A stretch of DNA of 64,000 nt. It comes from Saitoella complicata NRRL Y-17804. Its lineage: Eukaryota > Ascomycota > Saitoellomycetes > Saitoellales > Saitoellaceae. Below, piece after piece: positions 5,143 to 9,236 of the stretch. The stretch is taken from positions 124,001-188,000 of the forward strand of contig NW_017566992.1 of assembly GCF_001661265.1 (NCBI RefSeq), given 5' to 3'. The notes beneath the pieces were generated by a model. That model was not told the origin of the DNA. It ran no database searches and saw only the letters and a list, made by a program, of their open reading frames with translations. The translations under genes and the position numbers were made by a program. Within the stretch, counting starts at the first letter, position 1. Every line of letters starts with the position of its first letter.

Positions 5143-6390
5143 ATGAAGACGCACATTACACCCCGTCCTCCCGTCATGGCCAGTGCCCTCTCCGACGATG
5201 AAATCGACTACTCGAACTGGCATCACACTCTCTTCTCCTCCACCCCGTCCTTTATCGAGCATGCGACCTTCAAAGACCTCGTCTACCCCGGCACCCACGA
5301 CTCAGGCGCTTACGGCTCCGCCCTCCTCACCCATACAGCAGACAACAAACCATTCCCAATGGCTCTCCCCTACCTCGGCTCGAAGGGCGTAGAGAAGTTA
5401 AGAAATGCCGTGCAGGGTGTCACCAGAATGCAGGAGAGTGATGTTACAAGTCAGTTGAAGCATGGGGCGCGGTATCTGGATCTACGGTTTGCGACGCCGA
5501 AGGGGAAGGGAGAGGGGGAGCTCTGGCTCACACATGCCTTTGCGTATAACCCCGCGGAGGAAGTCTTGAGAGAGATCGCTTCTTTTGTACAGGAGCATCC
5601 GGGAGAGATCTTGATCTTTCTTTGTCGAAACGCGTACCCACAGAATACCCAAACACCCCAAATCACCTCCCTCGTCCTCAAACATCTGGGCGCATACGCA
5701 CACCCGAATCTTTGCAATAACTCAACGTACACCTCTCTGGCACACATGCTCTCTACGAACCAAAGAGTCATCCTAGCATGGGAGACAGCTCCCTCGGTGC
5801 CATATGACAAGGAAGTACCCGAGGTAGTCGAGGATAAACAATGGTGGCGTGCTGAGCAACTATTCAGCTGGACATGGCTCCCAAACAACGGCGACTGGAA
5901 ACCACGAACTGCATACATGGTCACACATGCACGCACCTGGGAGCACGAATATGGACAATGGAACCCACGGGTAGATTTACATATCCACTCTGAGCTCGAC
6001 GAGGAAGAAGAAGGAGAGGTAAAGAGGAGATTGAGGAATGGGAAGAAGATATTGATCTGGAGTCATCAAATATCGTATTTGGGGAGTAGAGCTATACCGG
6101 CTCAGTTGATGCCATGGAATAATGGACGGACGTTTAGGGAGTTGGCGAGGAGTTACAACAATGTCTTCCCACAGCACTTCCCATTTTCAGAGCGAGAAGC
6201 AGAGAGACATGAAGCGACGGAAGAAGCATTGCTGCCGGTACCGGAAGATGTGAGAGACAATATTGGCATCATACATGTTGATTTTCATAACGAGGTGTAC
6301 AAGGACTTGATGGCCTTTACCATATCCTCAAACAAACGAAGAATGAAGGCTATACTGAGTGAAAAACGTTTGAGTGGGCCATACGAATAG
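5143..6390 (+). CDS. PLC-X-like phosphodiesterase (PI-PLC/PLCXD type)
   Basis: One exon, about 415 residues from the ATG at 5143. Another ATG at 5176 is also possible. The protein resembles the single-domain PI-PLC X/PLCXD group. It shows the first catalytic His in VYPGTHDSGAYG, the substrate-loop motif HGARYLDLRF, and the second catalytic His in ELWLTHAFAYNP. It lacks the PH, EF-hand, Y and C2 domains of eukaryotic PLC, so calcium-regulated PIP2 hydrolysis cannot be assumed; the substrate is unknown. In-frame sequence upstream of 5143 encodes a hydrophobic segment but has no ATG (see findings). The gene converges on the SPX gene, with 104 bp between the stop codons. Confidence 0.8.
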   Translation: MKTHITPRPPVMASALSDDEIDYSNWHHTLFSSTPSFIEHATFKDLVYPGTHDSGAYGSALLTHTADNKPFPMALPYLGSKGVEKLRNAVQGVTRMQESDVTSQLKHGARYLDLRFATPKGKGEGELWLTHAFAYNPAEEVLREIASFVQEHPGEILIFLCRNAYPQNTQTPQITSLVLKHLGAYAHPNLCNNSTYTSLAHMLSTNQRVILAWETAPSVPYDKEVPEVVEDKQWWRAEQLFSWTWLPNNGDWKPRTAYMVTHARTWEHEYGQWNPRVDLHIHSELDEEEEGEVKRRLRNGKKILIWSHQISYLGSRAIPAQLMPWNNGRTFRELARSYNNVFPQHFPFSEREAERHEATEEALLPVPEDVRDNIGIIHVDFHNEVYKDLMAFTISSNKRRMKAILSEKRLSGPYE

Positions 6391-6494: not shown

Positions 6495-8512
6495 CTACAA
6501 ATGCCCATCCTCTACCTTCTTCGCATACTCTCCCCTCGTAACCCCCAAATGCACAATCCGACTCCCAGAACTAGCGACCGGATCAACCTCCTTCCCAACA
6601 ACAATCCCGTCCTCCGGCGCCCGGATCTCATCCAACAATTGTCCGAAAATCGAATGAATCGTCGCGATGACCTCGTCTTTCCGCACCCACGTATTGACTT
6701 CTGGGATCACAGAGAGGATCCCACCCTTTTGGCAGAAAATCCAGTAAGAGCGGTCGCAGATTACGGGTTCGTATTCGGGGACGGAGTGGTCTTCGGGTAT
6801 CATGCCGAGGTTTGACATTATGTTTGTGACGCCGAGGAGCGCGGACTTGACGAAGCGTTTCTGGAAGACACCGGGGTTGCCGATCTGTAACCCAAAGTTA
6901 GCCCACGATACAAACGCGACGACATACTTTTCGAGTTACCTCAACAGTTATCGATGGGATGTCATGAATTGTCATCGCACTCCCCCTCAGACTCCCATCC
7001 GGACTCGTATTATGCACGATAATCTGCGGGTTCTGCAACGTTGCCATTCGCCTCGTCCTCGGATCCAGCATATTCGCACGCACGTACAAACTGTTGACAC
7101 GTCCCTTACTCGCGGTATGTAAATCAATCAAATAATCAAACTTCCGCACGATCCGATCGAGCAAGGCATACGCATATTGCTGCGGGGTACTCCCATCGAG
7201 CTTACCGGGCATGAGTCGGTTAAGGTCTTGTCCGTCGAATCCGCGTTGGGAAGCGAGGAAACCTTGGACGTTCGCGACGGGGACTGCGACGACGGTACCG
7301 TGGAGTTGTTCCGGGTCGAGTTCGGTTTGGAAGAGACGGTGGATGACACGGACACCATTGACCTCGTTTCCGTGGAGTGCGGAGGTCATACCCACGATTG
7401 GGCCGGGTCTCACGCCGCGTGCGATCAGGACGGGGACTTGGAGTGGTTTGAGCGAATCTTCGATGAGGGTGATCCAAATTTTCGTCACGCGCCCATACGG
7501 AACGGAATTCAAGTCCAGCTCGGAATACGTCTGGATATTCGATTCCGAGATCGAGAGATCTTGCATGTCGTTGATTGGCAAGGTCGCGGATGGAGCCGGG
7601 GGCGCATGACGACGCCAGAGCTCGCGGGCACGGGAGAGGAGCATTTCGTCTTTCTCGGTAGTCGAGAATTTGAATTTCATGACCATGCGCCACATGTCCT
7701 TTCCTTCTGGCCCCATACTGTAGCGGCGTTGTGCGAGGTGGATAGGTTGTTGAGCTTGGTAGCTGCCCATCCCAGGAGGGCTATTGGTGCGTTTCATCGA
7801 GTCGTTGCCAACCGAGAATGAGATTGATCCGGAGCGAACGGGAGGTGAGTTAGCGGTCGACATCAAGGCATCATGCGTGGGACCCGATGCGACAGCTTTC
7901 GCAGGCACCCCGCTCGACTGCTGTCGAAAATGCTTATCGAACTTCTTTAAGATCTTGTGAAATCCCGTAACATTCGCCTGCGTGAACTCGATCAACTCTT
8001 CAATTAGATTTATCCTCCCTTGCAGCCTCTCCCTCCACTGCTTCTGCTCCTCCTCAGTCATGGCATTATGCCAAGTAGCATTCAGATCATCGAGTTCTTC
8101 TTCGGAGTCGGCTTCAACATCATGGAAGCGGTCGTCGACTTTTTCGAGTTCGTCGGAAAGGAGGTCCCGAAATTCATCGACGATTTTAGAGGCGAGGTCA
8201 GGATCGTAAGTTGAGGAAGCGAGTTTGATGGATTGTTGTTTGATGTACTGTACAGCAGACTCGTGAATACTACGTCAAGCAACAGTCTCAAAGCCATGTG
8301 TACCTGTTTTAACTTCTTGTAATCCTATACTCTCAATTAGCACAGCATTCATCACCAGATCACACCCCCACCCACGGGCACAGGCAGAACTCACGATATA
8401 ATACTCCGACCACTGAGGCACAGCCTTACGCAGCGCCAACTGCTTTCCAAACTACACACCCGCATCAGATCAACCATCCTCATCAACTGTATGCTGTGTG
8501 AATTACCTTCAT
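6495..8512 (-). CDS. SPX domain fused to AstE/AspA-type zinc hydrolase (aspartoacylase-like)
   Basis: Five coding exons: 8512-8507, 8451-8395, 8324-8304, 8247-6940 and 6884-6495, giving 593 residues. Residues 1 to about 138 form a textbook SPX domain: start MKFGKQL, then AVPQWSEYYIDYKKLKQYIK, and the closing motif NVTGFHKILKKFDKHF with the lysine cluster that binds inositol pyrophosphates. After a Ser-rich linker (about 140-270), the C-terminal half is a succinylglutamate desuccinylase/aspartoacylase (M14-like). It has the zinc ligands of ALHGNE near 320-323, the DLHT histidine near 405, and the catalytic glutamate of ITVE at 464, next to IGNPG. Known enzymes of this fold hydrolyse N-acyl amino acids. 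Phosphate or PP-InsP control of that activity is inference. The final 56-nt-spaced exon junctions all keep frame and carry GT..AG ends. Confidence 0.9.
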
Positions 8513-9236
8513 GATTGGGTTTGTGTTTGCAACTGGTGTGGGGGTGTCAGTGAGGGACTTTGGACGACGGCGCACTGGAGCACCCGCGCAACGTCCAACT
8601 CCACTTACGCTTTATCGATGGGACTCCGGGAACCAGGGGTAATGGAATTGCAGCATGGGGATTTAAACTTGGGAAAGGCGAGATTGGAAGGCAGTTTGGA
8701 AATGGGTGAGAGAAGTAGGCAAAATGATTGTCAATTGCTCCATCAATATGCTAATCACACGCATCGAGGTAGCTGTAGGCACGGAGGAAGTCAAGGAGAA
8801 CTCTATAAGATACAACATTAGCACTCGCTCGTACAAGTACTCAGATACCACGGTTAATGGCATAGACAACTCCAAATGTTCAGGTTAACGAGATTCAAAA
8901 GTTTGTTCCACACGAGTTATTCAGTTGAAGAAATTCAATGGATAATTTGGTGTTCATCTTTTTGGAGTTGATCGCAGAGCACGTCACTTGCAATGCTCTG
9001 CTGTTCCATGCCAGTGACCGTAGACTAGGATCGACTTACCGTTCACAGGATTGAGGATGGTTGAGTGTGTTGGTTGTTGGTTGAGGGTGTTGGGGGGAGG
9101 AAAAAGAGTCGCGCCTAAAAACACCCCCTCACGTGACGCCCCAAAAAAGTCCCACACTTCCAAGAAAAGTAACCAACCGCGCGTAACGTTGACATCCCCA
9201 GTCAACCCCCACCCCCCCTCGAGCTCTATTGCCAAG
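8513..9236. other. intergenic region between divergent SPX-AspA and MAK5 genes
   Basis: About 720 bp between two divergent start codons. I see no convincing gene, tRNA or repeat. Short open frames here have no recognisable domain and no splice context. It must hold the promoters of both neighbours. An in-frame ATG for MAK5 exists at 9057 but would add 60 residues of unlikely sequence. Confidence 0.6.

Follow-up and report, generated by a model that had tools for sequence, protein, structure and literature searches.

In a 64,000-nucleotide stretch of the Saitoella complicata NRRL Y-17804 genome (hereafter the window), a single minus-strand gene (6495..8512) encodes a 593-residue protein in which an SPX domain is fused to a zinc hydrolase of the AstE/AspA type. 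By alignment and tree position, the hydrolase half belongs to a bacterial operon subfamily of AstE/AspA hydrolases. We hypothesize, with our confidence evenly divided, that the SPX domain would make the hydrolysis of an amide conjugate answer to inositol pyrophosphates, and that a ~480-residue partner protein would act on the same conjugate; the gating, its direction, the substrate and the chemistry of the partner are each points that we infer.

Gene model and domain architecture

The spliced model comprises five exons and 593 codons plus a stop, with introns of 55, 70, 56 and 55 nt that are bounded by GT..AG in all four cases, and it agrees exactly with the coordinates (6495-8512) and the 593-codon length given in the initial annotation. 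Exon 1 (8507..8512, 6 nt) encodes only Met-Lys ahead of a GT donor and, once spliced, gives back the SPX start MKFGKQL; exon 2 (8395..8451, 57 nt) is flanked on either side by GT..AG introns; and exon 3 (8304..8324, 21 nt), likewise flanked, encodes DYKKLKQ and aligns with solved SPX chains. Residues 1-28 are thus a prediction from three small exons (6, 57 and 21 nt), backed by the alignment with solved SPX chains. The single open frame of exon 4 (6940..8247, 1308 nt) takes in what remains of the SPX domain, the linker and the larger part of the catalytic domain, and exon 5 (6495..6884, 390 nt) supplies the end of the catalytic domain and a C-terminal region, with the match to bacterial relatives running on through it. 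The exon 4 frame extends for 458 codons between stops and holds most of both domains, compared with a longest frame per window of 234 codons on average and 358 at most in 60 first-order Markov windows; together with the match of hydrolase residues 296-464 to a bacterial protein (59% identity in the best segment), this length argues that the frame did not arise by chance. Because KKFDKH, HGNE, DLHT and TVE all sit in this one frame, an annotation artefact that merged two neighbouring genes was rejected as having next to no probability.

The SPX domain (residues 1 to ~140; 7912..8512, minus strand) spans three introns and was delimited by Pfam PF03105 and by alignment to solved SPX chains. It is followed by a Ser/Pro-rich linker (residues ~141-254; 7570..7911, minus strand), recognized from its sequence and free of either Pfam domain match, and then by the AstE/AspA-type catalytic domain (residues ~297-494; 6795..7443, minus strand), which spans the intron at 6885-6939 and was placed by PF24827 (residues 310-488) and by PDB matches. 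A C-terminal region (residues ~500-580; 6537..6779, minus strand) is common, in alignments, to the solved proteins 6twl and 3na6 and to the bacterial relatives. Both profiles score well above their Pfam cut-offs, at 52 bits for SPX (cut-off 27.8) and 105.3 bits for AstE_AspA_cat (cut-off 25), and besides the fusion no other AstE_AspA_cat match was reported in its 14.1 Mb genome. The initial annotation had described an SPX module and a zinc site joined by a Ser-rich linker, and each of these elements is recovered: MKFGKQL at residue 1, DYKKLK at 22 and KKFDKH at 129; HGNE at 320, DLHT at 403 and TVE at 462; and, between the two domains in exon 4, the linker.

Two features near the gene were also recorded. 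On the plus strand, a 415-aa frame (5143-6390) lies tail to tail with the SPX-hydrolase gene, 104 nt apart; it has no Pfam match at 0.001, and parts of it seem to resemble a phospholipase-C-like phosphodiesterase. At 9130-9135, ~620 nt upstream of the start of the fusion gene and near a divergent DEAD-box gene, stands a CACGTG, a Pho4-type core. This hexamer occurs 6 times in the window versus a mean of 16.4 in shuffles, and as regulatory evidence the upstream copy was set aside as too weak and possibly meaningless.

The hydrolase half and its bacterial subfamily

A scan of prokaryotic contigs with the hydrolase returned one relative, in a Phaeodactylibacter assembly (Bacteroidota), which is the source of the 59% identity over the best segment (residues 296-464). 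Across 395 genomes of the class of Phaeodactylibacter, 148 contain a hydrolase match at E up to 1e-20. These fall into 17 genomes with 20 matches at E below 1e-69 and 43-55% identity (the clade) and 131 genomes with ~25-33% identity among the matches listed, where the cut between the 17 and the 131 is a gap read off the match list and one clade genome (G001, home of locus L012) was found with the S. complicata enzyme itself. The SPX-hydrolase and the 20 bacterial rows group in one clade with 100/100 support, apart from RimK-linked and DoeB rows, in both trees that were built (41 and 37 rows). Identity of the SPX-hydrolase to the bacterial members is 41.6-52.9%, and that within the bacterial clade is 41.9-90.6% (median 54.7).

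Resemblance to these 20 Bacteroidota operon hydrolases (L012 and L045-L063) extends to the active site. At H320, E323, R363, N371, H405 and E464, every one of the 20 clade rows has the S. complicata residue, and R372 corresponds to R in 9 rows and to H in 11; we take H320, E323 and H405 to be the zinc ligands and E464 the general base. With the catalytic residues intact, a pseudo-enzyme was rejected. Furthermore, the SPX-hydrolase retains many residues that typify the clade and are rare in 20 comparison rows (e.g., A407, S408, G410, Y416, Q433, P468, Q472 and R573), which argues for a substrate in common with the bacterial subfamily. The bacterial proteins differ in length, their frames of 295-350 aa leaving no room for an SPX domain.

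Outside these genomes, viral contigs yielded no relative when scanned with the hydrolase half, the SPX half or the alignment of the ~480-residue protein. Plasmid records contain hydrolase relatives in 488 cases, at no more than 36.4% identity among the 30 matches listed, and no relative of the ~480-residue protein.

A ~480-residue protein accompanies the hydrolase

We examined 21 loci, namely 20 clade loci, drawn from 17 genomes, plus a single locus of the ~30%-identity hydrolase type (L064), with contig ends leaving less than 6 kb at L012, L061 and L063. Of the 20 clade loci, 14 have a gene for a protein of ~480 residues within the examined stretch, and 10 have one for a glutathione (GSH)-synthetase-like ATP-grasp protein (PF02955 in the one member scanned; ten aligned). 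Two further members of the ATP-grasp cluster, from L055 and L064, proved to be RimK proper and adjoin the other type of AstE. Among the 395 genomes, the 480-residue protein is present in 16, comprising 15 of the 17 with a clade hydrolase and 1 of the 378 others; the exception (G311) combines it with only a 30%-type hydrolase, and the two clade genomes that lack it (G300 and G393) hold the most divergent clade members. The resulting association (Fisher p 4e-24) overstates the case and is not an independent test, because the partner was picked for adjacency to the hydrolase in these same genomes, one of them (G001) was itself found with the S. complicata enzyme, the genomes are akin and the subfamily cut was read off the list.

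The S. complicata genome also encodes a homologue of this protein (C28:203739-205325), in a 546-residue frame with 52% identity over query residues 22-121 and 137-479; identities among the 14 aligned bacterial members are 50.8-89.6%. In Bacteroidota the operon genes are often adjacent, whereas in S. complicata those for the hydrolase and the 480-residue protein are on different contigs (C1 and C28). No match to the GSH-synthetase-like ATP-grasp was obtained in the S. complicata genome at E up to 1, an empty search that by itself proves nothing.

As to what the 480-residue family may do, one member scanned against Pfam gave no match at 0.001, and the PDB, searched to an E value of 10, returned two weak matches to proteins named mkDPBB (best E 0.079), neither credible. 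With all 14 members and Pfam E values up to 5, RimK (at 0.042) and ATP-grasp (at 0.11) each turned up in a single member, and families with no relation to them matched as well or better (Aladin propeller at 0.0065 in two members, SPECT1 at 0.0084 in one). Profile comparison of the family with the ATP-grasp family of the operon gave nothing. By eye, a glycine-rich VIKIPYSNAGQGV stretch looks ATP-grasp-like, and it is mainly on this motif that we read the 480-residue protein as a probable ATP-grasp ligase.

Ligases also adjoin AstE-type hydrolases beyond the clade. A putative ATP-dependent zinc protease, RimK and an AstE-type hydrolase stand in a row on an Acaryochloris plasmid (L067, 1497-3858) and are adjacent in L055 (2831-5177); in L055 and L064 the hydrolase next to RimK is of the 30% type, which makes three loci in all with L067. 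These RimK-linked enzymes (L067, the second copy in L055, and L064, which is the same as L032) resemble our system in the pairing of an AstE-type hydrolase with an adjoining ATP-grasp ligase and differ in sequence, at 29-33% identity and across the main split of the tree. A literature search found no association of ATP-grasp, aspartoacylase and RimK.

Other genes recur around the operons. Three of the 21 loci have, close to the operon, a GNAT acetyltransferase fused to a carbon-nitrogen hydrolase (L012, 2-1393; L048, 3231-4751; L057, 9500-11125; one member scanned); for this GNAT-nitrilase protein the S. complicata genome gave only nitrilase-type matches (27-40%). A small glyoxalase-family-like protein adjoins the operon in 4 of 21 (L057, L058, L059 and L060; L059 scanned). 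Genes for arginine decarboxylase, for members of the arginase family or for deoxyhypusine-synthase-like proteins occur in 4 of the 20 clade loci (L048, L055, L057 and L058; four proteins scanned), a hint of a polyamine or basic amino acid conjugate that is only a lead.

Horizontal transfer of the hydrolase from bacteria is plausible, with nested and sister placements both fitting the tree. Alternatively, the hydrolase and the 480-residue protein may both be old in fungi, their bacterial likeness reflecting ancient shared ancestry, with neither transfer nor a dedicated pathway. We consider this quite possible, though less than probable: the tree does not place the SPX-hydrolase among the bacterial rows, keeping those 20 rows as one group is compatible with the data (p-AU 0.317), and the SPX-hydrolase branch is long (1.06). 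Such an origin is compatible with our preferred explanation, and two ~50%-identical genes that are paired in bacteria point against it to a single function, by whatever route they arrived.

The SPX half and phosphate signalling

SPX domains are receptors for inositol pyrophosphates. In the fusion protein, the pocket residues Y20, Y23, K27, N120, K126, K129, K130 and K133 are all present. The best solved SPX relatives in a PDB search were Vtc3 (8i6v_D, E 3.3e-8), 5ijp and 5ijj, the last two being SPX4 and Gde1 according to PMC10167327; the Vtc3 residues reported there as mutated (Y19, Y22, N120 and K126) align with Y20, Y23, N120 and K126 of the SPX-hydrolase.

The genome has 13 SPX matches counted exon by exon, one of them being the SPX-hydrolase gene, with a weak match on contig C11. 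In the scanned frames, the other SPX loci bear an EXS domain, a sodium-sulphate/citrate-type transporter domain (L003 and L004, together one gene), ankyrin repeats (two loci, one of which adds a GDE1 C2 domain) and VTC domains (two loci, of which L008 scored without SPX in the scan and adjoins an SPX match), and one fragment carries SPX alone. These EXS, transporter, ankyrin and VTC-type SPX loci are separate from the hydrolase fusion. The set of SPX loci, the introns and the 14.1 Mb genome size are in keeping with a fungus. Two IPK-family loci and a PPIP5K/Vip1-type N-domain were also found, and from these kinase genes S. complicata can probably make the SPX ligand.

The closest precedents for the arrangement are the VTC subunits and Gde1, which likewise join an N-terminal SPX domain to a second domain of catalytic type; the top-ranking PDB matches include the SPX chains 8i6v (Vtc3), 5ijp and 5ijj. 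The S. complicata fusion differs in that its second domain is a zinc amidohydrolase. VTC is reported to be activated by inositol pyrophosphates (PMC10167327), and Pho87 and Pho90 to be inhibited through their own SPX domains (PMC7381174). The partners usually listed for SPX (see also PMC7381174) are transporters, polyphosphate synthesis, a kinase inhibitor, a phosphodiesterase and ubiquitin ligases. An aspartoacylase-type hydrolase had been flagged as outside the classical SPX partners, and this holds; a literature search found no description of SPX fused to aspartoacylase, succinylglutamate desuccinylase or AstE, with the qualification that domain databases or the supplementary tables of PMC10167327, which sorted SPX proteins by neighbouring domain, may list one. 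The SPX-amidohydrolase fusion would add a further form to a known kind, the SPX-enzyme fusions, and does not make a category of its own.

Phosphate regulation of the S. complicata hydrolase is plausible. The SPX domain could instead serve to position the enzyme, for instance on VTC, on the vacuole or on another SPX protein, or to keep a complex together, leaving the hydrolase always active and without phosphate gating. A linker of ~110 Ser/Pro-rich residues, which does not demand direct contact between the domains, would suit such an arrangement, as would the homotypic SPX-SPX interaction reported for VTC in PMC10167327. We nevertheless think it rather unlikely, given that the checked pocket residues are kept, which a mere tether would not need, and that inositol-pyrophosphate kinase genes are present.

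Enzyme class and candidate substrates

The initial annotation had labelled the hydrolase as aspartoacylase/succinylglutamate desuccinylase (AstE). Membership of the AstE/AspA catalytic family stands, and the label is too narrow: the protein scores 24.9 bits against the NCBIfam aspartoacylase model (NF002601, cut-off 180), 15.5 bits against succinylglutamate desuccinylase (NF003706, cut-off 170) and 68.2 bits against DoeB (TIGR02994, cut-off 402.7), the best of the NCBIfam models. Classical aspartoacylase, AstE or DoeB identity was rejected on these scores, which are far under all three cut-offs, and the protein falls in a separate bacterial subfamily. It shares its domain family, zinc-site motif and C-terminal region with 3na6 and with DoeB, the N-acetyl-L-2,4-diaminobutyrate deacetylase (6twl and 6twm), and differs from them in having 22.3-23.5% identity to 3na6 and 6twl, in addition to its low DoeB score. 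For exon 4 with L012, the predicted structure was of low confidence (mean pLDDT 41.4).

A classical substrate (N-acetylaspartate, N-succinylglutamate or N-acetyl-diaminobutyrate), with the link to the 480-residue protein mattering in bacteria only, could still be hydrolysed by such an enzyme, which has the same catalytic domain family, its best PDB match in a DoeB-type deacetylase (6twl) and its best NCBIfam model in DoeB. Three observations make this very unlikely, namely that the scores fall far short of each of the three curated cut-offs, that identity to 3na6 and 6twl (22.3-23.5%) is well below that to the operon subfamily (41.6-52.9%), and that the 480-residue protein is also present in the S. 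complicata genome.

Proposed mechanism and implications

The reading that we prefer is SPX control over turnover of an amide conjugate. Briefly, one or both of the putative bacterial ligases (the 480-residue protein and the GSH-synthetase-like protein) would build an amide (a conjugate of the peptide, amino-acid or polyamine type), which the hydrolase would cleave, or whose precursor it would trim. Pairs of a ligase and an AstE-type hydrolase recur (L067, L055 and L064), and the simplest reading is that one makes an amide and the other breaks it. S. complicata would retain the hydrolase and the 480-residue protein, and with SPX attached to the hydrolase, turnover of the conjugate would follow cell phosphate. 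As for direction, our guess by analogy with VTC is that ligand-free SPX restrains the hydrolase and that ligand binding, when phosphate is plentiful, releases it. The fusion and the presence of the partner in the same genome suggest a metabolic step that was placed under phosphate control.

A more specific version, which we regard as unlikely, is that the amide-conjugate cycle of the Bacteroidota operons was taken into the fungus and SPX was fused to the hydrolase for phosphate sensing, the conjugate possibly being of a polyamine or a basic amino acid. Polyamines and basic amino acids are cations of the kind stored with polyphosphate. Acidocalcisomes, which are polyphosphate stores, hold several hundred millimolar basic amino acids, according to PMC7381174, and a link between the conjugate and phosphate storage would therefore be sensible. 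If the cycle did involve a polyamine or basic amino acid conjugate, SPX would tie the supply of counter-ions to phosphate storage.

Under the broader proposal of SPX-controlled conjugate hydrolysis, the co-occurring 480-residue protein, which is of no known family, offers a concrete handle on the substrate of the hydrolase, and an amide-bond hydrolase carrying its own SPX domain would bring a further area of metabolism under direct control by phosphate.
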